A stretch of 27,500 bases of DNA, taken from the IMG/VR virus record IMGVR_UViG_3300022934_000139, positions 1 through 27,500 of that record; one strand, 5' to 3'. This stretch comes from a virus. The notes beneath the pieces were generated by a model. The model saw only the letters and a program-made list of their open reading frames with translations. It had not been told where the DNA came from and ran no database searches. Position numbers and translations under genes: made by a program. This document shows, in pieces, positions 6,500 to 27,500 of the stretch (within the stretch, counting starts at the first letter, position 1; the number at the start of each line of letters is the position of its first letter).

Positions 6500-6657
6500 T
6501 AGACCTCCTTAGCCTTATACATATGCCTACCGTTGCCGGTGTATTTTGATGCACAGCCTGTCTTCATATACGCTTGGTTGATTGCATCATCAGCACTCAT
6601 GGCTCGATAGACTCCCATGAATCTATTCTCGCAGTATACTTCATAATATCTTACCAT
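6499..6657 (-). CDS. Small hypothetical protein, 52 aa
   Basis: ATG 6655-6657 overlaps the end of nrdB (the TGG TAA end contains ATGG) and TAA 6499-6501 overlaps the ATG of the next gene. The protein begins MVRYYEVYCENRFMGVYRAM, is basic near its C terminus and has a plausible alpha/beta character. The gene fills the gap between nrdB and the last operon gene exactly, which supports it as real. The function is unknown. Confidence 0.65.
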   Translation of the reverse strand: MVRYYEVYCENRFMGVYRAMSADDAINQAYMKTGCASKYTGNGRHMYKAKEV

Positions 6658-7601
6658 CCCCAAGTCCCCGTCATGCCTTGTGCATTGTAGTCCGTTACAC
6701 GCTTCTCAAAGAAATTAGAAATAGAACTACCTCCAAGCAGTTCTTCCATCCACGGTAGAGGGTTCTCCTTAACCTTCCAGTTCGTCTTGAGACCAAGTTG
6801 GAGTAAACGTCTGTCTGCGAGGTAGCGAATGTACTGCTTGACATCTGCCGCCGTGAGACCTTCCAAGTCACCCATCTCATACGCAAGATCAATAACCTTG
6901 TCTTCCAACTTGACTGCAGTCCTAAACATTTCGTATATATCTTTCTTGAAATCATCATTCACTACTCGTGGGTGCTCATCACAGAACTCCCTAAACAACT
7001 TAGCCATTCCCTCTGCGTGTTGGCTTTCATCGCGTACAGACCACTCAACGACTGTACACATCCCCGGCATCTTACCGTATCTTTGGTAGTTCAATAGCAT
7101 TGCAAATGCACTGAACAAGCTCATACCTTCATTGACGACTGATCGAGCGATTGCCAGAGCAGTGCCTTGGTGTGAATGTACGTCAATATCGGACATGAAC
7201 TCCACTTTTGCAGACATTTGCTGATACTCAAGGAACGTACTAAACTCCTCCTCAGGTAACCCTAATGTGTCATTCAGGAGAGCGTAGGCTCTTTGGTGGA
7301 TGAACTCTCGACTTGCAAAGGCCGTAAGCATCGCCCTGATCTCATTGTTCTTAAACTTGGGTATATAATACTCCAAGTAGTTTGTTCCCACCGCAACGTC
7401 ACTTTGCGTAAAAAGCCGCAGGATCTGGGTGATATGGTGTTTCTCTTTCTCCGATAGCTTACCGGACTTCCAATGGTTGACATCTGTCTGCAGTTCCAGT
7501 TCATCTTCAATCCAATGTATCCTTTCGTGTTCTGTGGCGTACTTGACTGCCCACGGATATGCAAATGGTTTGTAGGTCGTGTTTAGTTCTAATAAGCTCA
7601 T
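6651..7601 (-). CDS. nrdB: Class Ia ribonucleotide reductase beta subunit (NrdB), 316 aa
   Basis: NrdB holds the di-iron site and stable tyrosyl radical that start reduction of ribonucleotides by NrdA, supplying dNTPs for phage replication. The expected ligands are visible with E. coli-like spacing: D68, E99, H102 (EFIH), E158, E192 and H195 (RDESQH). The radical tyrosine is Y106, four residues after H102 as in E. coli (H118/Y122), so this looks like a tyrosyl-radical enzyme rather than a Mn/Fe Tyr-less type. The C-terminal tail (SNFFEKRVTDY onward) is the usual NrdA-docking peptide region. At 316 aa it is shorter than E. coli NrdB, as in many phages. The start ATG overlaps the end of the upstream 72-aa gene. 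It lies in the same operon as nrdA, separated by two small genes. Confidence 0.95.
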   Translation of the reverse strand: MSLLELNTTYKPFAYPWAVKYATEHERIHWIEDELELQTDVNHWKSGKLSEKEKHHITQILRLFTQSDVAVGTNYLEYYIPKFKNNEIRAMLTAFASREFIHQRAYALLNDTLGLPEEEFSTFLEYQQMSAKVEFMSDIDVHSHQGTALAIARSVVNEGMSLFSAFAMLLNYQRYGKMPGMCTVVEWSVRDESQHAEGMAKLFREFCDEHPRVVNDDFKKDIYEMFRTAVKLEDKVIDLAYEMGDLEGLTAADVKQYIRYLADRRLLQLGLKTNWKVKENPLPWMEELLGGSSISNFFEKRVTDYNAQGMTGTWGW

Positions 7602-7816
7602 ACTAATCGTGTCTCTCTTGTTTTTTCTTCAGCTTCTTTTAAATAATGTACAGTTTTGTAGCGAACATAAGCACCTAAACATTCTATTAGGTCTTTAGCT
7701 AGTTGTTCACGTTGTGGAGCTAAAGATGCAAAATCTGTATTGGTTAAACTTTCTTCAAGACAGTAGATGTTTTGAACCATCTTATCAATCTCATCTGCGT
7801 TTAATTTCTCATACAT
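7598..7816 (-). CDS. Small hypothetical protein between nrdA and nrdB, 72 aa
   Basis: I chose ATG 7814-7816, nine bases after AAGGAG. A TTG two codons earlier is too close to that site. The protein (MYEKLNADEIDKMVQNIYCL at its start) is helical and charged, with a Lys/Glu/Arg-rich C terminus. Its stop region overlaps the start of nrdB, and its start overlaps the stop of the 67-aa gene upstream. A role linked to the reductase is possible from position only; no family is recognised. Confidence 0.7.
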   Translation of the reverse strand: MYEKLNADEIDKMVQNIYCLEESLTNTDFASLAPQREQLAKDLIECLGAYVRYKTVHYLKEAEEKTRETRLV

Positions 7817-8012
7817 CTTCAATATCTCCTTGGTTCTGATAGATTACATTCATCAGATTATTATTATGGTAAATCAAACGATCCACCTCCGACTGCAGAG
7901 CACTCACGTGCTCATAACAGTCATTCAGTATGCGTTTATTAAATGGATCAGAGTCCTTGATTAAACTCAAGCGTTTCACAAGGGTGTCTGATGTTTCCTT
8001 TAGCCCTGACAT
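7809..8012 (-). CDS. Small helical hypothetical protein downstream of nrdA, 67 aa
   Basis: ATG 8010-8012 follows AGAGGAG with eight-base spacing; a GTG at 8021 is less likely. The start lies inside the end of nrdA, which suggests translational coupling. The product is mostly helical with a heptad-like Leu/Val/Ile pattern (about residues 10-60), compatible with a short coiled coil. The function is unknown. Confidence 0.65.
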   Translation of the reverse strand: MSGLKETSDTLVKRLSLIKDSDPFNKRILNDCYEHVSALQSEVDRLIYHNNNLMNVIYQNQGDIEDV

Positions 8013-9760
8013 GATACACACTCCTCTAAGTCTCCGGTAAAGTCCTTGAGCGCATTCCTGTCAATCTTAGTGCCAACTTTCTCTGCCGTAACGCCAGACG
8101 TGGTACGGAGATAATAGAGACCCTTGAGTCCCTCCTTCCAAGCCTTAAGGTGAACTTGATTGACGACAGTCTTGTCCGTGCCTGACGGAAAGAAGACGTT
8201 GACGGATTGTCCTTGGCAGATGAACTCCTGTCTTTTGGCCGAATGTTCAACAACCCACGTCTGGTCAAGTTCAAATGCGGTCTTGAAGGTATCCTTCTCT
8301 CCCACGCTGAGGAACTCCAGATGCTGTACTGAGCCTTCAGCCTCAACAATAGACGCCCATACTTTCTTGGTATTCTGCCCATAGGACTCTAAGACCTCCT
8401 CCAAATACGGATTGCGTACAGTGTGACTACCGGCACGAGTACGATGCACGTAGCAATTTGATATACGGGGCTCAATAGAAGCAGAACACCCACATAAGAT
8501 GCTAGAATTAGCGTTAGGAGCAATAGCCAACAGATGCATATTTCTAACACCAGTACCCACTCCATCAGGACATTCGCCACGTTCCACAGCAAGTTGGTAG
8601 GTTGCTTCAACAGCTTGGGCTTTGATGTCTTTGAACAGTCTGTAGTTTTCACTAGCGGCTTGCCATGATTCCCAAGCTATCCCTTTGCTTTGAAGGTAGC
8701 CATGCCATCCCATTGCTCCAAGGCCGACTGAGCGTTCTCTATAAGCTGAGTAGACAGCTTTTGATAGTTCTTCTGGTGCGTTGTCAATAAAGTATTGAAT
8801 GACGTTATCCAAGAGTCTGATAAGGTCTCCAACCATTCCGCTTGCTTTCCACTCGTCGTACTTTTCGAGGTTGACGGAGCTGAGGCAACAGACTGCTGTG
8901 CGCTCTTCACTTGTTGCGAGATGGATTTCATTGCAGAGGTTACTGCCATGAATTGTGAGTCCAAGTTTTCTTTGAGCTTCAGGTAAGCTCCTTCTGGCTG
9001 TGTCGATAAAGTTAATGTAAGGACTGCCAGTTCTGAACCTAGCTTCAAGAATTCGTTCCCATAGTCTGCGAGCTTTGACTGTATCTCTAACAATTCCTGA
9101 ATCTGGGTCGATAAGTTGCCATTCTTCGTCATTAATTACACTCTCCATAAATTTATCAGTCACGTTGACTGCGTTAAACAAATTAAAACATTTACGATTG
9201 ATGTCACCACCAGTCGGTACTTTGAAGGAGATGAACTCCTCAATGTCAGGATGACTTACGTCTAGGTATGCCGCATAGCTCCCCTTGCGTGTCTTCCCTT
9301 GTTTGTAGGCAGTCATCTGACTGTCCACTACTTTCATGAATGGGATTGGGCCGGGTGCTTTGTCGCTGATCCCACGAACATCTGACCAGTGACCACCTAC
9401 ACCACCCCCTTTGACAGAAAGCCACGCTACTTCACCATTATGGTCAATAAGGCTATCAAGAGTGTCCCCCACGTAAGTAAGGAAACAACTAATAGGCAAG
9501 CCCCTATTGCCTCTGCCATGTTCAGGTGCGTTCGAGAGCACAGGCGACGCAAACATAAACCAACCTTTAGAAGCGTAATCGTAAACACGCTGTCCAAAAT
9601 CGAGATCACCGCCACAATAGGCCACACTAGCACGAGCAAAAGCTTCCTGAGGAGAACTTTCGTGGTCGAGCATATAGTAGTCACGCATGAGCGTATCTGC
9701 TTGTTCAGATAATCGAGTGTCTCTTTCATAGTCTATCGTTATCCCTAGGTAATTTGTCAT
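8000..9760 (-). CDS. nrdA: Class Ia ribonucleotide reductase alpha subunit (NrdA)
   Basis: This is the catalytic subunit that reduces ribonucleotides to deoxyribonucleotides. Numbered from ATG 9760, the active-site Cys pair is C92 (PISCFL) and C291 (AVCCLS). The catalytic Asn-Cys-Glu triad is N274, C276 and E278 (NLCNE). The radical-relay tyrosine pair appears as GLYYLRT, and the C terminus has the redox-shuttle CxxC (ECVSCQG). The protein is about 586 aa and lacks the roughly 90-residue N-terminal ATP-cone of E. coli NrdA, so dATP feedback inhibition through that domain should be absent. Two starts are possible: ATG 9760, with GAGG twelve bases upstream, or ATG 9778, with no ribosome site. 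No glutaredoxin or thioredoxin gene is adjacent. Confidence 0.95.
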   Translation of the reverse strand: MTNYLGITIDYERDTRLSEQADTLMRDYYMLDHESSPQEAFARASVAYCGGDLDFGQRVYDYASKGWFMFASPVLSNAPEHGRGNRGLPISCFLTYVGDTLDSLIDHNGEVAWLSVKGGGVGGHWSDVRGISDKAPGPIPFMKVVDSQMTAYKQGKTRKGSYAAYLDVSHPDIEEFISFKVPTGGDINRKCFNLFNAVNVTDKFMESVINDEEWQLIDPDSGIVRDTVKARRLWERILEARFRTGSPYINFIDTARRSLPEAQRKLGLTIHGSNLCNEIHLATSEERTAVCCLSSVNLEKYDEWKASGMVGDLIRLLDNVIQYFIDNAPEELSKAVYSAYRERSVGLGAMGWHGYLQSKGIAWESWQAASENYRLFKDIKAQAVEATYQLAVERGECPDGVGTGVRNMHLLAIAPNANSSILCGCSASIEPRISNCYVHRTRAGSHTVRNPYLEEVLESYGQNTKKVWASIVEAEGSVQHLEFLSVGEKDTFKTAFELDQTWVVEHSAKRQEFICQGQSVNVFFPSGTDKTVVNQVHLKAWKEGLKGLYYLRTTSGVTAEKVGTKIDRNALKDFTGDLEECVSCQG

Positions 9761-9803
9761 TGATTTTTTGTACCTCATAAAGTAATTGGGCGAACCTACT
9801 ATT

Positions 9804-10034: not shown

Positions 10035-10185
10035 CTTCTAAGTCCTCCAGAAAATAATCAATCTTTTCCTCTATCTTATCTTGGAAACGATCGACCAGTT
10101 CCTCAGAGGTGATCTCAAGCACCTCTAGGACACTGATCTCATCCTGTTGTTTTAAGCGGTCACACACGTCGGTAAATGTTAGCAT
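10027..10185 (-). CDS. Small acidic helical protein, 52 aa
   Basis: ATG 10183-10185 overlaps the TAA of the endonuclease I gene and follows AAGGAAG. TGA 10027-10029 overlaps the DUF3310 gene. The sequence begins MLTFTDVCDRLKQQDEISVL and is strongly acidic at its C terminus. I have an impression that similar short proteins are common in marine phages, but I cannot confirm a family. The exact start/stop overlaps on both sides support it as a true gene. Confidence 0.7.
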   Translation of the reverse strand: MLTFTDVCDRLKQQDEISVLEVLEITSEELVDRFQDKIEEKIDYFLEDLEDE

Positions 10186-10586
10186 ACTTCCGCTTCCTTA
10201 AGAAGTTCAGTAATGGTCTCGACAGTGTAGTACCTAAAGCCATTTTTGTTAGCCCATTCAGCCATTGTGAACTTAGTACCATCATTTCTTCTCCTTGCTC
10301 TTGGCATTGGTGTGTCTGGGTGATAAAACACAAACACTAACTCTTCATATATTAAACTGTTTCGTATGTCTACATATTTTCTTGCTTCCTCAGAGTCCCT
10401 GAAGCGACCCTTGGCCTCTATCAGGAAGTCTCCGATACGGAAGTCAGGTTCGTACATTTTCTCCTGTGTGTAGGCAATACTGTCGGTGTGGTAATCACAA
10501 CCCTTAAGTACCCCTAAGTGCAACTCATACTCAAACCAACTGTCGTAGCCCTTAGGAGGCTTGCCCTTGCGCTTCTTTGTACTCAC
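10179..10586 (-). CDS. Endonuclease I, Holliday junction resolvase (T7 gp3-like), 135 aa
   Basis: T7 endonuclease I cuts branched DNA, matures concatemers and degrades host DNA. The fold's PD-(D/E)xK signature is visible as YEPDF (D48) followed nine residues later by E57-A-K59 (LIEAKG). An acidic cluster lies in the first helix (E19, E21). In T7 the matching residues are E20, D55, E65 and K67. The length (135 aa) is close to T7 gp3 (149 aa). The N terminus is Lys-rich. The gene starts inside the 3' end of the GIY-YIG gene (35-bp overlap) and precedes the 52-aa gene. Confidence 0.85.
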   Translation of the reverse strand: MSTKKRKGKPPKGYDSWFEYELHLGVLKGCDYHTDSIAYTQEKMYEPDFRIGDFLIEAKGRFRDSEEARKYVDIRNSLIYEELVFVFYHPDTPMPRARRRNDGTKFTMAEWANKNGFRYYTVETITELLKEAEVC

Positions 10587-11043
10587 GCATGACCTCCTGT
10601 ATTACTGGAACATACGTATTAAACCATTCTCCTTTATGATCGTGGCAACTCTTGTGTTTCCTAAGCATCTTATGAATAGCTTTTTCTGCTGTGTGTCGAT
10701 CTTTGAAATGTTCTCGATAGCACAGAACAAAATCACGATGTGGCGACGATGTTTGATATCCTTTCAGTCGATCAGTAGCATCAACAGCCTTGCCTACTTT
10801 GTACCAATTAGGCCATGCCATATTACGGATGATGTACACTTCCCCCTCTTTACTACGTTTATCAATCTCGCAATGAGACCATGCATCATCAAGGCTTTTG
10901 TATCTCCCCGGTTTATGAAGGGGATGTCCAAAAGGAATATATTTTCCATCAATCCACATCCGTTTAGCTCTACGTTTTGCATGAGCTTCTGGGTTGTCTT
11001 TGTAATAGTATGGTTTACCTGTCTTTGGGTTTATGTCGGACAT
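10552..11043 (-). CDS. GIY-YIG-like (T5orf172-type) nuclease domain protein, 163 aa
   Basis: Residues about 66-145 show the T5orf172 pattern: GEVYIIRN, then WYKVGKAVDATDRLKGYQTS, an HTAEKAIH helix and a GEWFNT end. This is a GIY-YIG superfamily domain in which the Tyr-Ile-Ile stands for the first motif and the Glu of GEWF is the metal-binding candidate. The N-terminal 60 residues are basic and Tyr/His-rich and could bind DNA. It may be a free-standing homing-type nuclease or a DNA-processing enzyme. Its 35-bp overlap with endonuclease I and coupling to the upstream nuclease argue for a fixed operon gene rather than a recent insertion. Confidence 0.75.
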   Translation of the reverse strand: MSDINPKTGKPYYYKDNPEAHAKRRAKRMWIDGKYIPFGHPLHKPGRYKSLDDAWSHCEIDKRSKEGEVYIIRNMAWPNWYKVGKAVDATDRLKGYQTSSPHRDFVLCYREHFKDRHTAEKAIHKMLRKHKSCHDHKGEWFNTYVPVIQEVMREYKEAQGQAS

Positions 11044-12173: not shown

Positions 12174-13886
12174 TTAATGCGTCTCTGCCCAGTTATTTCC
12201 AATTTTATATTCACCATCTAGCGGACAGTTCATCTCAAAGGCAATACCTGCGGCCTTGATTGACTCAACCATCAGGTAGCCCACCTTGTCTGCGTGGTCA
12301 GCCCTAGCTTCTATCTGGTACTCATCGTGGATAGACCCAAGGAGTTTGTAGTCAAGATTCCACTTTGGAGCATACTGAGAGAAGATAGCCAGAGCCTTCT
12401 TCATAACCACTGCACCCGCTGACTGAAGCAGGGTGTTTAAGGCAGAATGTTCACTTCTGATGTGAAGGCATCGTCCGTCCAGTCCTCTGAGGTGACCTCT
12501 TTGGGAAGCGATTGAGACTCTTTCTCTAAGCTCTGCAAGTGCGGGAGTATTGTCGAGAAACCGCTGTCTAAGTCTCGCTCCAGTCCTCTGACTGCCATCC
12601 ACAATAGAGCCGATTTTAGCGTCTCCTGCTCCGTATAGGAAGGCGTATATAAATGTTTTTGCCTGAGATCGTGTAGACAATCCTGCATTTCGCTGATTTG
12701 TTGTATGAATGTCTCCGTTAAGGATTTCATTCGTATACTCCTTATCGTTCATGTAATGTGCAAGCATTCGTAGCTCAAGGCCACTAGCGTCTACACCAAC
12801 TAATTTACGTCCCTCAGGTACAATCCACAAAGCACGACACTCTGTACCATAAGGAACTCCTACGGCAGGCACTTGAGCCATGTTGGGACTACTGTGCGTC
12901 ATCCGTCCTGTGACTGCCCCAATGGCGTTGACCTGTCCATGCACTCGACCGTCGTCCTCGACTGCGTCAATCCACGATTGGACTTGTGCGATCCGCTTCT
13001 GAACCATGAGATACTCAGCAATAAGTTGAGCCTCAGGTATATCAGTAACAGTTTCCAATGTCTTCTCGTCAACAATAGCCTGACCATTCTCCGTAAACTT
13101 CTCAGGCTTCCATCCGAAACGCCTAAGATACCTCCCTATCTGCTGACGGCTACCTAGATTAAACTCAGGCCAATCAATACGGCTGAAGGTTCCACCTACG
13201 GTGTCCCAAGCATCCCCTAGAAACTTAAGCCCGACAGACGATAGATTACCGTCCTTCTTGTATTTAGGAACGATCTCTTTAACGAACGTCGGAAGCGGTT
13301 TAAACTTCTCATGCACTTTGTCTTCAAGTTCATTCTGTTTCTCCTTAAGCTCTGCAACTAAGTCGAACGCTTTTCTTTGGTCGAGGAGCCATCCATTAGA
13401 CATTTGCTGATGGATCTCACGCTGTACTCTGTGCTCCAAATCAACACTTGTATCTCCAAACGGTTCAAGGGCTTTCTCAAGAAAGGCAAGTACCTGCTCA
13501 GTAACTCTAACGTCTTGCTTGCAGTACTCAAGCATCTCAGGCGTAAGCGCAGTCCAGTCATAGTATTCTCCTTTAGGAAACTTCAAACGCTGTCCCCAAG
13601 CATCCAGAGAGTGTCCTCCGTCAAGGCTTGGATTGTATAGTCTTGAGAGTACCAGTGTGTCTGTAACGCCTCCAATTACCTTGACACCTAGCAAACGCTC
13701 AACCGCAGGGATATCGTAGTTAATGAGATTGTGTCCGACGTGTTCAGTCACATCAGCAAACAACTCCTCAACCATCTCCTTTGTTGGCATCTCAAGTGTA
13801 TACATCTTGTCATCTTTGATAGCGCACAAGCACCAGATGACAGACGGCTTGAGGCCATCAGTTTCGATGTCCCAGATACAACGCAC
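12174..13886 (-). CDS. Family A DNA polymerase with 3'-5' exonuclease (T7 gp5-like), 570 aa
   Basis: This is the replicative polymerase. The N-terminal exonuclease is intact: D6-I-E8 (WDIETDG), N56-Y-D58 (LINYD) and Y121-xxx-D125 (YCKQD). Polymerase motif A is VDASGLELR (D366), motif B is R406-x3-K410-TFIY414 with LYGAGDAKIG, and motif C is H520-D521-E522. Tyr at position 414 of the O helix corresponds to T7 Y526. At 570 aa it is shorter than T7 gp5 (704 aa), mostly in the region between exonuclease and palm (residues 150-300), where T7 carries its thumb and thioredoxin-binding loop. Thioredoxin use therefore cannot be assumed. It follows the primase-helicase gene directly. Confidence 0.95.
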   Translation of the reverse strand: MRCIWDIETDGLKPSVIWCLCAIKDDKMYTLEMPTKEMVEELFADVTEHVGHNLINYDIPAVERLLGVKVIGGVTDTLVLSRLYNPSLDGGHSLDAWGQRLKFPKGEYYDWTALTPEMLEYCKQDVRVTEQVLAFLEKALEPFGDTSVDLEHRVQREIHQQMSNGWLLDQRKAFDLVAELKEKQNELEDKVHEKFKPLPTFVKEIVPKYKKDGNLSSVGLKFLGDAWDTVGGTFSRIDWPEFNLGSRQQIGRYLRRFGWKPEKFTENGQAIVDEKTLETVTDIPEAQLIAEYLMVQKRIAQVQSWIDAVEDDGRVHGQVNAIGAVTGRMTHSSPNMAQVPAVGVPYGTECRALWIVPEGRKLVGVDASGLELRMLAHYMNDKEYTNEILNGDIHTTNQRNAGLSTRSQAKTFIYAFLYGAGDAKIGSIVDGSQRTGARLRQRFLDNTPALAELRERVSIASQRGHLRGLDGRCLHIRSEHSALNTLLQSAGAVVMKKALAIFSQYAPKWNLDYKLLGSIHDEYQIEARADHADKVGYLMVESIKAAGIAFEMNCPLDGEYKIGNNWAETH

Positions 13887-15491
13887 TTAGAACTCCTCTA
13901 TCGTGTTGGCTTCTTGAATCTCAGGCTTCTGCCCACGCTCTACTCGACCTGTCAAGGCATTGTAGTAGAGCCACCCGGCACTGCCTGTGATTCCTGTGCG
14001 ACGACACTTGACGACCTGCACTTGCGTTGAGTTCCGTGCGTACTCATCCTCTGCCATCTTGTCACGACTGAGCAGGATCGTATTAAATGCAATCTGGTTG
14101 ATTGATCCTGATCCCTTCAAATCGTACTCGTTGACGTTGTGAGGATTCGTCAGGCTTGGTTTACGCATATGACTGACAACAATCACGGACACATCGGTCT
14201 CCTTAACAAGCTTGAGAAGTCGATCCATGAAGTCATCAATCGTCTTGTTCTCGTTGCTTGTCACAGCGGCTTGCAGTGGGTCGATAATCAACACATCACA
14301 ACCGCTACCCTTGACCATCGCACGGAGCTTCAGGAACAACTCATCAGTGTCCACAGCACCGTTATGATCCAACAACAGTATCCGACCGTCAGTAATGATC
14401 TCAGAACGTAACTTGTCAAAGTCGATGTTCTTGCGATCCTCAAGCGACAGGTTGTGTCCTGTATGTATCGTCAACAAGTTCTCTACGGCTTCACCATTGG
14501 ACGCCTCAAGGAACGCACAGCCAATCGTCTTGGTTGTGTTCTTCCAGAAGTGGTACGCAATCTCGTTGACCATTGTGGTCTTACCGACAGAAGTCAATGC
14601 ACCTATCACGGTGATTTCTCCTGCGGCAATGCCACCATTGAGCATCGAGTTCAGCATACCAAAGCTCTCAGGAAACGGAATGATCTCCTCAGTGCCACGC
14701 TTGATGAAGTCACCCCAAGCGTCCTCCAAAGTTATCACTCCGGTCATGCGGTAGGTCTTAGCCTCCCACCACTGAGCCGTGAAAGCCCTAACCTTGTTGT
14801 TCATCAGATAGTCTGAGGCGTCCTTAAAGTCCGTCAGAGAGACTATCTTTGCTTTGTTGGGGGATAGTACCTGAGCACACTTCTCAGCCGCCTCACGGCC
14901 CGCAGAATCGCTGTCGAAACAAATCACGACGTTCTCAAAGCCCTCAAGCCACTCTAGGTTCTGCTTAAAGTCCTTGACTGCCCCTGCCGCCCCTTTGGAC
15001 ACAGAGACAACCGGGTAACGTCCAAGCATCTCATAGGCCGCCAGTGCGTCCAGTTCGCCCTCCACGACGGTCACATAGCGACCGCCTGTGTTGAACAATT
15101 GCTGACCGAACATGACGTTTGTCCGTAGGTCGCCTTGAGCACGAAAGGTCTTAGTAGCGACCTCCCTAACCTTACAACCGACTAACTTTCCGTTGTTGTC
15201 ATAGTAGGGGTAATATTGCGAGTGTTGGTCAGAATGTACGTTGAACTTTCTCGCAGTTGCTTCCGATATCTTTCGATCTGGAATCGCTTGAGTGGTTCCA
15301 TACATTTCCACTGGCTTAGTGTACGACACAACATTACTAGCGGTCTCCACAGATGTAGCCTCCTTAAAATAGGTTTGACACTTAAAACAGTATCCATGTC
15401 CGTCCGTGTAGACTGCGAGAGCATCACTGCTCCCGCACTTCTCACAGGACTCGTGGCGAACAAACGAGTCATTAGAACTCTCCATCATCAT
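13887..15491 (-). CDS. Bifunctional primase-helicase (T7 gp4-like), 534 aa
   Basis: The protein makes RNA primers and unwinds the fork. An N-terminal Zn finger is formed by C16, C19, C35 and C38. The TOPRIM primase core shows E144 (VVEGELDAL) and D193-x-D195 (CFDSDSAG). The C-terminal RecA-like helicase of the DnaB/gp4 type has Walker A GALTSVGKT (K304), Walker B DVLIIDP (D404) and a later VVSHMRKP motif. The tail ends in acidic residues and Phe (TIEEF), as in T7 gp4, where it contacts the polymerase. Its ATG lies within the last codons of the SSB gene (20-bp overlap), and the polymerase gene follows with no gap. Confidence 0.95.
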   Translation of the reverse strand: MMMESSNDSFVRHESCEKCGSSDALAVYTDGHGYCFKCQTYFKEATSVETASNVVSYTKPVEMYGTTQAIPDRKISEATARKFNVHSDQHSQYYPYYDNNGKLVGCKVREVATKTFRAQGDLRTNVMFGQQLFNTGGRYVTVVEGELDALAAYEMLGRYPVVSVSKGAAGAVKDFKQNLEWLEGFENVVICFDSDSAGREAAEKCAQVLSPNKAKIVSLTDFKDASDYLMNNKVRAFTAQWWEAKTYRMTGVITLEDAWGDFIKRGTEEIIPFPESFGMLNSMLNGGIAAGEITVIGALTSVGKTTMVNEIAYHFWKNTTKTIGCAFLEASNGEAVENLLTIHTGHNLSLEDRKNIDFDKLRSEIITDGRILLLDHNGAVDTDELFLKLRAMVKGSGCDVLIIDPLQAAVTSNENKTIDDFMDRLLKLVKETDVSVIVVSHMRKPSLTNPHNVNEYDLKGSGSINQIAFNTILLSRDKMAEDEYARNSTQVQVVKCRRTGITGSAGWLYYNALTGRVERGQKPEIQEANTIEEF

Positions 15492-18781: not shown

Positions 18782-19072
18782 TTAGTAAGAAATCTTGTAA
18801 GTCCAATCTGCGGCCTCAGTGCCGTAGATAGTACCGTCCTCAATCCACGCAGAGCGCATATGCTCAACAGCGTGTGCGAGGGTCTTGAGAATCTCCCGCT
18901 TGGTCACAGGTATCTCTGGCTTGTTCCAGAGAGAGACCGAAGTCAGACGAGTGTCACCACCGTCACGCTTGATCTCGATCTCGTACAGGTATGTGTACCC
19001 GTTGACGTGATCGTATAGACCCACGACCTCTAATAGATCGTCCTTAATGATTGTCTTGATGCGGTTAGTCAT
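18782..19072 (-). CDS. First gene of the leftward operon, hypothetical, 96 aa
   Basis: The ATG at 19070-19072 follows AGGAGAATACAT. This gene would be transcribed first from the divergent intergenic region, a position usually held by early host-takeover genes in phages. The sequence is mixed alpha/beta (TIIKDDLLEVVGLYDHVNGY, then KREILKTLAHAVEHM). I do not recognise a family. Confidence 0.7.
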   Translation of the reverse strand: MTNRIKTIIKDDLLEVVGLYDHVNGYTYLYEIEIKRDGGDTRLTSVSLWNKPEIPVTKREILKTLAHAVEHMRSAWIEDGTIYGTEAADWTYKISY

Positions 19073-19145
19073 ATGTATTCTCCTGTTTCGTTTGATTAGA
19101 CAGTAGCAGACACTGTGCCAGCTTTAGAAACTCCTTTGTATTCAA
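19065..19145 (-). CDS. Possible 26-aa leader peptide
   Basis: A minus-strand frame from TTG 19143-19145 to TAA 19065-19067 overlaps the start of the 96-aa gene. Its start (NTKEFLKLAQCLLL) resembles the HKEFL peptide at 16025-16108, and the surrounding DNA is also similar (gaaactcctttgtattc versus gaaactctttgtgttc). It may be a leader, a remnant or chance. Confidence 0.2.
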   Translation of the reverse strand: MNTKEFLKLAQCLLLSNQTKQENTYD

Positions 19146-19186
19146 TAGCTTATAATCCCAGGTACTACCTAAGTCTTAGTTACTAA

Positions 19187-19236
19187 TGGTAACACTTGTG
19201 TGCTTTGGTAACACTTGAGGTAACACATGGTAACAG
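19187..19236 (+). repeat. Four GGTAACA direct repeats (iteron-like)
   Basis: GGTAACA occurs at 19188, 19207, 19219 and 19229, two of the copies within the longer TGGTAACACTTG (19187 and 19206). Spacings are 19, 12 and 10 bp. They could be binding sites for a phage initiator or repressor near the expected leftward promoter. Confidence 0.5.
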
Positions 19237-19316
19237 ATTGAGTGATGCTTTGGTAGTGCTTGAGGGTGTCCTGAGGGTACTTCTTAGGCACACACACGCA
19301 CTACTTTTGCACACAC

Positions 19317-19486
19317 TTATGCACACCTAGGTAGCCTGTGGATAACTTATGCACAGCCCCTAGGGTCACCCTGTGGATAACTTAAGTGTTTCACGTGAAA
19401 CATTTGGATAACCTGTGGATGACTCTAACAACCTGTGGAGTTCCTGTGAATAACTTGTGAATTCCTTGTGGGTTACCTGTGGATAA
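19317..19486. promoter_or_regulatory. Cluster of six perfect DnaA boxes
   Basis: Exact matches to TTATNCACA are seen at 19317-19325 and 19347-19355 on the plus strand. On the minus strand they are at 19337-19345, 19372-19380, 19445-19453 and 19478-19486. Single-mismatch copies lie at 19403-19411 and 19414-19422. This is the binding sequence of the bacterial initiator DnaA. Six exact 9-mers in 170 bp is far above chance and resembles a bacterial oriC. Confidence 0.85.
19387..19402. promoter_or_regulatory. Perfect parS site (ParB-binding palindrome)
   Basis: The 16-bp palindrome TGTTTCACGTGAAACA is an exact match to the widely conserved chromosomal parS consensus TGTTnCACGTGAAACA. It sits inside the DnaA-box cluster. 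No parA or parB gene is visible in the window, so the protein that reads it would be host ParB or lie outside this window. Confidence 0.85.
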
Positions 19487-19545
19487 CCCCGGGGGAGGGC
19501 TTATGTGTTGCACAAATGTTACAGTACCTGCCCATATTTGCTAAG

Positions 19546-19575
19546 GAAACCCTCAGGAAACCCTTAAGAAACCCT
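19546..19575 (+). repeat. Three phased GAAACCCT repeats
   Basis: GAAACCCT occurs at 19546, 19557 and 19568, exactly 11 bp apart, so a bound protein would meet all three on one face of the helix. They lie between the DnaA boxes and the AT-rich tract, where bacterial origins often carry accessory or unwinding elements. Confidence 0.5.
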
Positions 19576-19717
19576 TAAAAAGTGACTAAAAGTACTACAT
19601 TGGTCATTCTTATGTAAACTTATGTATTAATTAATAAAAATAATGATAAAAAGTAACACAAAAGGGTTGACAAAAGGGTAAACTTGGGGCATCCTAAGGA
19701 TATCTTAAGTATACCTA

Positions 19718-19746
19718 TTGACATTTAGTTATTTTTATGGTATAAT
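19718..19746 (+). promoter_or_regulatory. Perfect consensus sigma70 promoter for the packaging operon
   Basis: TTGACA (19718-19723) and TATAAT (19741-19746) are separated by 17 bases, a full match to the bacterial housekeeping consensus. The -10 lies in a longer motif, TTTTATGGTATAATATA, shared with the promoter at 23992-24020. It points to host RNA polymerase transcribing the terminase, lysozyme and portal genes. Confidence 0.85.
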
Positions 19747-19841
19747 ATAGATATATTAAGAGATATTAAGTTAGTTCGTTATGAATTAATCATTAATTAC
19801 TAACTAAAGGCACTTAAGTACCCTTAAGAAGGAAAATACTT

Positions 19842-20219
19842 ATGGAAAATGGTAAAAAGATTGGTCGTCCTAGAAAACTGGATGTCGAATCTAAAAAACC
19901 AACCAAAAGAGGTAAGATTGGTCGCCCACCGGGTGATGCGGCGATCATCAATGAATATAAAGCCCGTATGTTGGCTTCACCTAAGTCACGTAAGGTACTC
20001 GACAGTATACTTGATGCGGCTCTTAATGATGACCATAAGAACCAAGCGGCGGCTTGGAAGCTCCTAATGGATCGTATGCTACCCATTAGTTACTTTGAGA
20101 AAGACAAAGAAGGTGGTGGTCGTCCTGCAGTCAGTATTACCATATCTGGCATTGGTGAGGCTAAAGTAACTGAAGAAGACATTATTGACGCAGAGGTGAT
20201 TGAAGATGACAAAGAATGA
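19842..20219 (+). CDS. Putative small terminase subunit (TerS), 125 aa
   Basis: The ATG follows AAGGAAAATACTT. The N terminus carries two AT-hook-like motifs (KKIGRPRK at about 5-12 and GKIGRPPG at about 24-31). A helical region follows (about 37-85), then an acidic C terminus. Small terminase subunits recognise the packaging site and feed DNA to the large subunit. The assignment rests mainly on being the first gene of the operon leading to the large terminase and portal, plus DNA-binding motifs. The lysozyme gene starts inside its last codons. Confidence 0.65.
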   Translation: MENGKKIGRPRKLDVESKKPTKRGKIGRPPGDAAIINEYKARMLASPKSRKVLDSILDAALNDDHKNQAAAWKLLMDRMLPISYFEKDKEGGGRPAVSITISGIGEAKVTEEDIIDAEVIEDDKE

Positions 20220-20664
20220 ATTGATTGAAATCGTCAAAGAAGACCTCATTCGTCATGAAGGTTATGTTGCTGAGATATACCTTGACTCAGAGAATCTACC
20301 GACCTTTGGGATTGGTCATTTAGTCACAGAAGACGACATGGAATACTCATGGCCCGTCGGCACCCCTGTGACAGACGAAAGAATCCTTGACGTATTTCAT
20401 AAAGACTGTGATGTCGCCTACACAGATGCCTGTGCTCTTGTCTTAAACTTTGCAGGACAAGCCCCAGATGCCCAAAGGGTCTTAGTCAATATGGCATTTA
20501 ATCTTGGTCGTAATCGTCTATCAAAGTTTAAGAACATGCTACGTTACGTCAACGAAGGTAACTACATCATGGCCGCCAATGAGATGGTTAATTCCAAGTG
20601 GTACGGTCAGGTAGGTCGTCGTAGCAAAGAGCTTGTCGATATTATGAAAGAGGCTAAGGCTTGA
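20206..20664 (+). CDS. Endolysin, T4-type lysozyme (GH24), about 152 aa
   Basis: It cleaves the peptidoglycan glycan strands at the end of infection. The GH24 catalytic triad is visible with T4 spacing. Counted from ATG 20206 it is E18 (RHEG), D27 (YLDSE) and T33 (PTFGIGH), with intervals of 9 and 6 residues as in T4 E11/D20/T26. The C-terminal half shows the usual lysozyme helices (MAFNLGRNRLSKFKNML). No signal peptide or N-terminal membrane anchor is seen, so it needs a holin, which is not identified here. The ATG at 20206, after AGGTG, is preferred to a TTG at 20200. It overlaps the genes on both sides and lies between the two terminase genes. Confidence 0.9.
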   Translation: MTKNELIEIVKEDLIRHEGYVAEIYLDSENLPTFGIGHLVTEDDMEYSWPVGTPVTDERILDVFHKDCDVAYTDACALVLNFAGQAPDAQRVLVNMAFNLGRNRLSKFKNMLRYVNEGNYIMAANEMVNSKWYGQVGRRSKELVDIMKEAKA

Positions 20665-21920
20665 GTACAGAACTCAATGTCGAGCTTCTTCCGTGGCAAC
20701 AAGAGGTCTTTAGCGACCCTAGCCGATTCAAGGTTGTTGCCGCAGGTCGTCGTACTGGTAAATCTCGCCTAGCGGCGTGGTTACTTATCATCAACGCTCT
20801 ACAGACTGAACGAGGTCATGTCTTCTACGTAGCCCCTACCCAAGGGCAAGCAAGAGACATCATGTGGAACACCCTGATGGAATTAGGTAACCCCGTCATC
20901 ACAGGTAGCCACATTAACAATCTGACAATCAAACTGGTCAACGGTGCAACTATCAGCCTTAAAGGTGCTGACCGCCCAGAAACAATGCGTGGTGTATCCC
21001 TTAAGTTCCTTGTAATGGACGAATATGCGGATATGAAGCCCTCTGTATGGGAAACCATCTTACGTCCTGCCTTGGCCGACCAGAAGGGTGAGGCAATGTT
21101 CATAGGAACACCTATGGGACGTAATCACTTCTATGAGTTGTTTCAGTATGCGGAGATGTCAGGTGATGAGACTTACAAGGCGTGGCATTTTACGTCTTAT
21201 GACAATCCACTACTCGACCCAGACGAGATTGATGTTGCTAAGAAGTCAATGTCGTCTTATGCTTTCCGACAGGAATTTATGGCTTCTTTTGAGGCATTGG
21301 GTTCCGAAATATTTAAAGAGGATTGGGTTAAGTTTAGTCCTGATGAGCCTGACTTTGGGGATTACTACATTGCAGTCGACCTTGCGGGTTTTGCTGATGT
21401 TGAAAGCGCAACGAAGTCTAAAAACAAGAAACTCGACCAAACGGCGATTGCGATAGTCAAAGCGAACGAAGACGGATGGTGGGTAGCGGATATTGTTCAT
21501 GGACGATGGGATATCAAAAAGACCGCCAAGAAAATATTCGACGCTGTCAATACGTATCAACCAGTAGCAGTTGGTATCGAAAAAGGAGCCTTAAAGAATG
21601 CGGTACTGCCTTACCTGACAGACCTCATGAAATCCAAGCAGAGATTCTTCAGAGTCGAAGAGTTGACACACGGAAACAAAAAGAAAACTGATCGTGTTGT
21701 CTGGGCTCTGCAAGGACGTTTTGAACACGGACAGATTATACTGAATGAAGGCGATTGGAACCCTGAATTTCTTGACGAACTCTTTCAGTTTCCTAATGCC
21801 TTAGTGCATGACGATTTGGTTGATGCTTTAGCATACATTGACCAATTAGCTAAAGTATCGTACTATTACGATTACGAAGAAAATGACTTTGAAATCTTAG
21901 ACCCTGTGGCAGGTTACTAA
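20661..21920 (+). CDS. Large terminase subunit (TerL), 419 aa
   Basis: TerL is the packaging motor and nuclease. The ATPase domain has Walker A AAGRRTGKS (K34) and Walker B FLVMDE (D120, catalytic E121). The C-terminal RNase H-like nuclease shows D240 (IAVDLAG), E307 (VGIEKG) and a closing acidic patch HDDLVDA (D384, D385, D388). The length suits this family. The start is TTG at 20661, overlapping the lysozyme stop (TTGA); no ATG exists near the N terminus, so the TTG start is well supported. The portal gene follows one base after the stop. Confidence 0.95.
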   Translation: MSTELNVELLPWQQEVFSDPSRFKVVAAGRRTGKSRLAAWLLIINALQTERGHVFYVAPTQGQARDIMWNTLMELGNPVITGSHINNLTIKLVNGATISLKGADRPETMRGVSLKFLVMDEYADMKPSVWETILRPALADQKGEAMFIGTPMGRNHFYELFQYAEMSGDETYKAWHFTSYDNPLLDPDEIDVAKKSMSSYAFRQEFMASFEALGSEIFKEDWVKFSPDEPDFGDYYIAVDLAGFADVESATKSKNKKLDQTAIAIVKANEDGWWVADIVHGRWDIKKTAKKIFDAVNTYQPVAVGIEKGALKNAVLPYLTDLMKSKQRFFRVEELTHGNKKKTDRVVWALQGRFEHGQIILNEGDWNPEFLDELFQFPNALVHDDLVDALAYIDQLAKVSYYYDYEENDFEILDPVAGY

Positions 21921-26299: not shown

Positions 26300-26312
26300 A
26301 GCAACTAGGTAG

Positions 26313-26334
26313 CCCCTCTCCGGAGGGGTTTCCT
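26313..26334 (+). terminator. Terminator after the major capsid gene
   Basis: CCCCTC (26313-26318) pairs with GAGGGG (26323-26328) around TCCG, a stable tetraloop type, and is followed by TTTCCTCC, a weak U-tract. T7 has a terminator at the same place after its capsid gene; here it may likewise lower expression of the fibre gene. Confidence 0.75.
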
Positions 26335-26369
26335 CCTTCCTATACAAGAATTCTATACTGGAGATGTAA

Positions 26370-27500
26370 ATGGGTATCTTTCGTGGCACAGGTGGTACAG
26401 GTGATTCTACAACAGATACTACAGTCACTACTGTAACCGAAAAAGCCGCAGAAGCCGCATCTTCAGCTACCTCAGCCGCCAATAGCGCAACCTCAGCCGC
26501 TAACAGCGCATCCTCTGCATCCACTTCAGCAACTAATGCCGCTACCAGTGCAACCAATTCGGCTACTAGTGCAAGTAATGCGTCTACTTCAGAAACTAAT
26601 GCGGCTACTTCAGCCAGTCAAGCGGCTACCTCAGCTACAAATTCAGCCTCCTCAGCCACTGCTTCAGCGTCAAGTGCATCCTCTGCATCAACATCAGCAA
26701 CCAATGCCGCTACTTCAGCCACTGCGGCACAGACTGCAGAAACCAATGCAGAAACTGCAGAGACCAATGCAGAGACTGCTTACGCAAACACTTTAGCAAT
26801 CTTTGGTAATGCCACAGACGTACAGAATGCTGTTGATGATGCAGAAAAGTTAGCGATCAACCCTGAAGATTCTCAGTATACATTAAGTGATGCAGTTACT
26901 ACAGGCTACTCAGCCCTTCACTACGCCGCTAAAGCAGAAGACTATAAAACAGCCGCAGAAGTCTCTAAGAATGCCGCTGAGACTGCAGAGACTGCCGCAG
27001 AAACTGCCCAAGGGCTTGCAGAGACTGCTAAGACTGCGGCAGAAACTGCTCAGAGTGCCGCTGAGACTGCACAGGCCGCCGCTGAGTTAGCTCAGTCAAA
27101 TGCTGAAACAGTGTATGATAATTTTGATGATCGCTACTTAGGTAACAAGTCAGGTGACCCTCTTGTTGATAATGATAACGATGGTCTTACCACTGGTACA
27201 CTGTATTTCAACACCACTGAAAATGAAATGCGAGTGTACACCGGGACTGCTTGGGTTGCTGTACAAGAACTCTCTGGTGACCAGACTGTTAACTCTCTCA
27301 CCTCCAACAACAATGTAGTCGTCAAAGGCAACCTTGAAGTCCAAGGCACTACCATCACTGTTGACTCTGCCACTGCTCAGACCATTGACCTAGGTGATAA
27401 CGATAAGATTCGCTTAGGTGACTCTGATGATCTTCAGATTTACCATGATGGCTTAAAGAGCGTCATTCAAGATTCTGGCACAGGCACTTTAGACATAAGC
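26370..27500 (+). CDS. Tail fibre protein, partial (first 377 codons)
   Basis: ATG 26370 follows GGAG by six bases and the frame stays open to the window end. After a short N terminus (MGIFRGTGGTGDST) come long Ala/Ser/Thr/Asn repeats (about residues 24-136) and a second Ala/Glu/Thr block (about 194-247), typical of trimeric fibre shafts. A beta-rich part follows, with DDRYLGNKSGDP and LYFNTTENEMRVYTGTAWV, then KIRLGDSDDLQIYHDG, a repeat common in marine phage fibres. The receptor-binding tip lies outside the window. Confidence 0.85.
   Translation, partial: MGIFRGTGGTGDSTTDTTVTTVTEKAAEAASSATSAANSATSAANSASSASTSATNAATSATNSATSASNASTSETNAATSASQAATSATNSASSATASASSASSASTSATNAATSATAAQTAETNAETAETNAETAYANTLAIFGNATDVQNAVDDAEKLAINPEDSQYTLSDAVTTGYSALHYAAKAEDYKTAAEVSKNAAETAETAAETAQGLAETAKTAAETAQSAAETAQAAAELAQSNAETVYDNFDDRYLGNKSGDPLVDNDNDGLTTGTLYFNTTENEMRVYTGTAWVAVQELSGDQTVNSLTSNNNVVVKGNLEVQGTTITVDSATAQTIDLGDNDKIRLGDSDDLQIYHDGLKSVIQDSGTGTLDIS

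Follow-up and report, generated by a model that had tools for sequence, protein, structure and literature searches.

A chromosomal-type parS site inside a probable DnaA-dependent replication origin of an uncultured phage

Introduction

Bacteriophage phi29 replicates by a protein-primed mechanism and infects a sporulating host. Its DNA is carried into spores by the host ParB protein, Spo0J, according to the work of Meijer et al. (2005) as cited in PMC9437464. In SGI1, mimics of parS hijack the ParABS system of IncC plasmids, and losing one of these sites alters copy number (PMC10954446). Actinobacteriophage parABS prophages of the RedRock type have their own ParA and ParB, use 8-bp direct repeats, and form plasmid-like lysogens (PMC7157519). 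In bacteria, the parS1-4 sites of Pseudomonas aeruginosa overlap oriC (PMC10419367), and the ParA1 and ParB1 proteins of Vibrio cholerae contact DnaA (PMC7022226). In Bacillus subtilis, control of DnaA by ParA needs no parS near oriC (PMC7614844).

Here we describe a phage locus in which a chromosomal-type parS site lies among DnaA boxes. The stretch of DNA analyzed, termed the window, is 27,500 nt long and corresponds to positions 1 to 27,500 of IMG/VR record IMGVR_UViG_3300022934_000139, a linear virus contig.

Results

An exact parS site between divergent gene blocks

A first-pass annotation had reported a perfect chromosomal parS, beyond chance expectation, in a large intergenic region between divergent transcription units. 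All of these points were upheld. The site, TGTTTCACGTGAAACA (19387-19402), is an exact copy of the 16-bp chromosomal-type palindrome TGTTNCACGTGNAACA, and in a scan of the whole 27.5-kb window it is the sole site with three or fewer mismatches to parS. It is located in a 769-bp intergenic region (19073-19841) between the leftward and rightward gene blocks. In 0.70 Mb of sequence upstream of the terminase genes of 241 relatives, exact parS is present in three loci, compared with none for 200 composition-matched permuted palindromes. We also scanned 50,697 sequenced phage records: parS with AT flanks occurs at 1159 places in 376 records, and a scrambled palindrome with the same flanks in one. 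Given these controls and the lack of any other near-match in the window, we rejected chance occurrence. A cruciform or hairpin was rejected, its signal being weak (z -0.78). Several CTTAAG hexamers are distributed across the intergenic region, one of which abuts parS, and four iteron-like GGTAACA copies are found at 19185-19240, left of the DnaA boxes.

The leftward block encodes ribonucleotide reductase, an exonuclease, a family A DNA polymerase, a T7-type primase-helicase and a Gp2.5-like ssDNA-binding protein; the rightward block encodes lysozyme, the large terminase, the portal and the major capsid protein (Table 1). By its position, the first gene of the rightward block may encode the small terminase. 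The ribonucleotide reductase consists of two subunits (6651-9778), and a gene for a GIY-YIG-type (T5orf172/MUG113) domain protein (10552-11043) adjoins a T7 endonuclease I-like gene (10179-10586). To the right of the major capsid gene, positions 26300-27100 are highly repetitive and of low complexity. The window contains no tRNA genes and no RNA families, and no tyrosine integrase (PF00589) was found in the window or its relatives.

The earlier description of the phage as T7-like fits only its DNA polymerase and primase-helicase; the capsid and packaging proteins belong to other families. None of the window's large ORFs that could be identified encodes an RNA polymerase; a search for the T7-type enzyme (PF00940) gave no match in the window, and none in the control genomes either. 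The DNA polymerase is 50% identical to that of Pelagibacter phage HTVC103P, and the nearest named relatives by this protein suggest that the phage is marine. We rejected naming a host from the polymerase matches, which are to Pelagibacter and roseobacter phages, as they are too distant. Only three bacterial contigs hold relatives, all of them metagenome-assembled (Sphingobacteriales, Verrucomicrobiales and Crocinitomicaceae). Host assignment from these was likewise rejected, as the groups differ and the contigs are probably misbinned phage contigs.

The first-pass annotation had also seen no parAB, and our search for parB agrees. ParB_N (PF02195) was not found in the window, in the 36.8-kb parS-bearing contig of relative L206, or in 12 other relatives, mostly fragments, in a search to which control genomes responded. 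The L206 contig carries packaging, tail and replication genes. Because the genomes of relatives reach about 36-39 kb, about one quarter of the window phage's genome probably lies outside the 27.5-kb window, and L206 is therefore the one near-whole genome in which ParB is seen to be absent. A ParABS system has parA and parB in cis; with no ParB_N found, the window is not such a system of its own.

The site lies within an array of DnaA boxes

The context overlooked in the first-pass annotation is an array of DnaA boxes around parS. All six TTATNCACA boxes of the window fall within 170 bp (19317-19486), on both sides of parS, and none occurs elsewhere. The expected count is 1.05, and none of 100 shuffled sequences reached six. 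An AT-rich stretch, a candidate unwinding element, follows the array. Cumulative GC skew shows a sharp local minimum at the 19317-19841 region, and gene direction switches at the same point; a similar skew switch, again with a switch in gene direction, is seen in the L206 contig. The region also contains a sigma-70 type promoter, probably the start of rightward transcription, whose TTGACA and TATAAT boxes recur in the alignment with L130 and L132. Because the box array, AT-rich stretch, promoter, and switch in skew and gene direction occur together, we consider the region 19317-19841 a probable DnaA-dependent replication origin with parS inside it.

The promoter raises the possibility that parS is an operator between the divergent blocks, at which host ParB or a phage repressor would silence or time transcription, with replication uninvolved. 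The site does lie between divergent units, upstream of a perfect promoter, and an SGI1 parS mimic is found beside a regulated promoter, its loss changing copy number (PMC10954446). However, the promoter is far from the site, 316 bp to the right of parS, and the common neighbor of parS in independent lineages is a DnaA box, as described below. We consider an operator role unlikely.

Table 1. Coordinates of the parS site, origin elements and selected genes in the window
Feature	Position	Strand	Remarks
Family A DNA polymerase	12174..13886	-	phrog_17, E=1.3e-147
T7-type primase-helicase	13887..15491	-	phrog_239, E=5.7e-161; Helic-prim_T7_N
First gene of leftward (replication/nucleotide metabolism) block	18782..19072	-	no family match
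Probable DnaA-dependent replication origin, whole	19317..19841	.	boxes, skew minimum, AT-rich stretch, gene-direction switch
DnaA box TTATGCACA	19317..19325	+	motif match
DnaA box TTATCCACA	19337..19345	-	motif match
DnaA box TTATGCACA	19347..19355	+	motif match
DnaA box TTATCCACA	19372..19380	-	6 bp left of parS; common to L130, L132, L212, L215
parS TGTTTCACGTGAAACA	19387..19402	.	exact chromosomal ParB-site palindrome
One-mismatch DnaA box TTATCCAAA	19403..19411	-	directly right of parS
One-mismatch DnaA box TCATCCACA	19414..19422	-	right of parS; perfect in L130, L132, L212, L215
DnaA box TTATTCACA	19445..19453	-	motif match
DnaA box TTATCCACA	19478..19486	-	motif match
AT-rich stretch, candidate unwinding element	19550..19849	.	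70-82% A+T per 100 bp
Sigma-70 type promoter, TTGACA-17-TATAAT	19718..19746	+	12/12; probable start of rightward transcription
First gene of rightward (packaging/virion) block	19842..20219	+	no family match; stays beside origin in relatives
Large terminase, family marker	20661..21920	+	phrog_2, E=1.2e-46

parS recurs beside DnaA boxes in relatives

Relatives were collected from IMG/VR by a terminase search, which gave 80 loci at 76-97% identity, and by two added searches with divergent terminases, which gave 160 further loci. In many relatives, a DnaA-box cluster recurs approximately 1.2-1.4 kb upstream of the terminase gene; at least three boxes within 300 bp are present in 53 of the 158 terminase-tree members with enough upstream sequence. 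The distribution of parS is bimodal: in 257 loci, 18 have a site with 0-1 mismatch and all others have three or more, which is background. The expectation that the palindrome would occupy the same inter-operon position in relatives is thus borne out in part: it recurs there, but most relatives lack it. We rejected parS as a fixed family trait, and since most relatives do without it, the site is dispensable for the family. Absence from close relatives, which the first-pass annotation had listed as evidence against the site, is seen in L124 and L125, whose terminase is 95% identical to that of the window and which keep the DnaA cluster; it is not seen in others, which keep parS exactly. L017 also belongs to the family; its parS is exact, and DnaA boxes are missing from its vicinity.

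When we scanned for parS and a DnaA box no more than 30 bp apart, 32 stretches were returned, compared with seven for a reversed-box control, in which the stretches have 0-1 boxes near parS. The scans picked up 18 members of the family, with terminase identities as low as 55%, and further phage contigs that carry terminase genes or SU10-like portal genes (L227, L210 and L238). An unselected collection of 241 loci (2.04 Mb) contains five parS sites. All five have a DnaA box at a distance of 200 bp or less, a zone that covers 3.1% of bases; they represent only about two independent lineages. A short viral contig piece (L211:292-448) has three TGTTCCACGTGGAACA sites, two of which flank three DnaA boxes within 70 bp, forming a compact parS-DnaA-parS cassette.

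There is usually one parS per genome. This number bears on whether the site is a decoy, through which multiplying phage DNA would titrate host ParB, and with it DnaA, and disturb host segregation or replication. Many phage copies would bear many sites, and extra parS copies destabilize IncC plasmids, probably by titration (PMC10954446). A single site per genome is nevertheless weak for titration, and a decoy leaves the position inside the DnaA array unexplained. We regard titration as improbable.

parS is constrained in sequence and variable in placement

In the clade consisting of the window, L212, L130, L132 and L215, none of the 16 parS columns is variable, compared with 7 of 54 columns in the DnaA boxes and 310 of 610 other ungapped columns. 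This alignment indicates that parS is under purifying constraint in the window's clade. The only variants among relatives are T/C at position 5 and A/G at position 12 (Y/R), as in cellular parS. Placement differs between lineages: parS lies within the box array in the window's clade and in L229/L233/L235, to the left of the array in L228/L230/L232, L221 and L219/L231, and to its right in L206/L209 and L213/L321. On the terminase tree, at least eight presence/absence changes are needed. The simplest reading is that parS is a selected site, gained and lost repeatedly within the origin. Because it is exactly kept in some lineages and differently placed in others, its presence or absence appears to be a selected trait and not a matter of chance.

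A neutral passenger, a fragment of host oriC acquired by recombination and devoid of function, would be in keeping with the patchy presence of parS in the family. It is at odds with the invariant site amid variable flanks, with the several separate placements, and with the parS-less relatives, which show background similarity at the site and not a decayed parS. We find this explanation very improbable.

ParB of P. aeruginosa binds half-parS sites (PMC10419367), and half-sites were seen in some origins. In L324 (contig IMGVR_UViG_3300047554_000198), which is closely related to the parS-bearing L213/L321, the same place (L324:4795-4935) is occupied by about six direct half-site copies, TGTTTCAC(G), in 90 bp, and a full parS is missing. 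In L130, L132 and L215, roughly 70-90 bp separate parS from two GTGAAACA half-sites. The L324 array notwithstanding, half-site enrichment in parS-less origins is not significant relative to permuted 8-mers and was rejected.

Host-type parS is enriched in sequenced phages

In the sequenced-phage collection, GC-flanked parS occurs in 250 records, and host-type parS is enriched hundreds-fold over the scrambled palindrome. The scan is a survey and not a controlled test, and many of its Listeria records are unverified wastewater assemblies. The phages with parS include Microviridae, Herelleviridae, actinophages and phi29-like phages. Phi29 has four exact TGTTTCACGTGGAACA sites in NC_011048. Exact parS is also present in Goe6 (three sites), Lactobacillus phage Lpa804 (three), Bacillus phage vB_BcoS-136 (four), Vibrio phage phi 3 (four), Pseudomonas phage phiPsa300 (two), Gordonia phage Woes (two), Listeria phage A511 (one), Spiroplasma phage 4 (one) and Butyrivibrio phage Arian (three). 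None of those searched for ParB_N has it, phi29, Lpa804, vB_BcoS-136, Vibrio phi 3, A511 and Woes among them; Microbacterium phage Paschalis has one parS and does have ParB_N. In the sequenced phages that were read around the site, no DnaA box lies within 200 bp of parS, save one near the site of Microvirus phi-CA82.

Of the four sites in Vibrio phage phi 3 (KP280063), those at 821 and 2934 fall within the left terminal repeat as annotated; the other two repeat them at the right end. In Pseudomonas phage phiPsa300 (NC_073687), parS at 385 lies in the direct terminal repeat. Such terminal-repeat DNA would enter the cell first or last.

Escherichia, Klebsiella and Salmonella phages are missing from the ten names that occur most often and from a sample of 60 records spread over the 376 with parS; in other searches of the same collection they are among the largest groups. 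Enterobacteriaceae have no chromosomal par genes (PMC7022226). Two enterobacterial Autographiviridae have DnaA-box sequence between genes, as repeats or as one box, and no parS: Klebsiella phage VLCpiA2a (ON602764, 15015-15067) and Pectobacterium phage Jarilo (MH059637, 19146-19176).

These data bear on the identity of the reader. A different phage or host DNA-binding protein could recognize the palindrome, its identity with parS being convergence. Several small phage proteins have no family match, which would leave room for such a reader. However, cellular parS has precisely this sequence and these Y/R variants. The palindrome is enriched in unrelated phages too, and enterobacterial ones were not seen among the commonest names or sampled records; this pattern is what reading by host ParB would predict. 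We give little credence to convergence.

Discussion

With moderate confidence, we propose that the region 19073-19841 is a phage origin opened by DnaA and that parS serves as a loading site for the chromosomal ParB of the host. In this model, the host initiator DnaA would open the origin, and parS would be the entry point for ParB-CTP clamps, which would then slide across the origin, DnaA boxes included. To the host, the phage origin would therefore resemble the oriC region of its own chromosome. Two consequences can be envisaged. First, host ParA and SMC may position and separate ParB-coated phage origins and deliver them to the two daughter cells during a delay in lysis, by analogy with SGI1 and with phi29 as its case is cited in PMC9437464. 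Second, ParB and ParA may adjust DnaA firing at the phage origin, by analogy with V. cholerae. One or both of these would be the most likely outcome of ParB loading. Since parS is repeatedly placed beside DnaA boxes, a role tied to the origin is favored, and this applies equally to both. Because the site lies in a probable origin and no segregation gene was found, the phage probably borrows host ParB where copying starts.

Several observations count against this model. ParA controls DnaA in B. subtilis without parS near oriC (PMC7614844), the exact parS of L017 is not accompanied by DnaA boxes, and parS is dispensable in the family. In addition, the skew switch could stem from gene direction alone.

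A more specific version, which we find possible but doubtful, is that the phage origin mimics the host oriC-parS arrangement. From a loading site 6 bp away from a DnaA box, ParB would directly tune initiation and hand the copies to host segregation, and the cassette would have been assembled independently by several lineages.

Our findings suggest that phages without partition genes can borrow the host segregation system, in this case exactly at the replication origin. The locus offers a single-site system for asking whether ParB beside DnaA boxes alters initiation, a question that is open in bacteria as well. The survey of sequenced phages further suggests that parS is common in phages without parB and may follow the presence of ParABS in the host. 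If so, parS could be a clue to host range and a marker of the way in which phages place or retain their DNA.

Phi29 already exemplifies a phage that has host parS but no parB, and this combination is not in itself new. What we did not find described in the open literature is parS in a DnaA-box origin, the way its presence and absence have evolved across a large uncultured phage family, and the recurrence of the arrangement in other lineages. Like phi29, insofar as that system is described in PMC9437464, the window phage has a canonical parS and no parB that could be found, so that host ParB would handle phage DNA; in phi29, however, the sites are dispersed and lack DnaA boxes in the 200 bp around them, whereas the window has one site inside a DnaA-box origin and shows no sign of a sporulating host. 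Lpa804, vB_BcoS-136, Vibrio phi 3, A511 and Woes resemble it in having exact parS and no ParB_N found, but the sites examined have no DnaA box in the surrounding 200 bp. SGI1 is similarly a mobile element without parAB that bears the parS of another replicon, but it is an integrative element with a 22-bp site for a plasmid ParB, whereas the window is from a phage and has a chromosomal-type site. RedRock-type phages also have centromere sites near the replication region; they encode ParA and ParB and use 8-bp direct repeats, in contrast to the 16-bp palindrome of the window, where no ParB was found. Bacterial oriC-parS regions are alike in that a DnaA-type origin lies close to a 16-bp site of this type; here that arrangement is seen in a phage genome with no parB found, and only 6 bp separate parS from the neighboring DnaA box.
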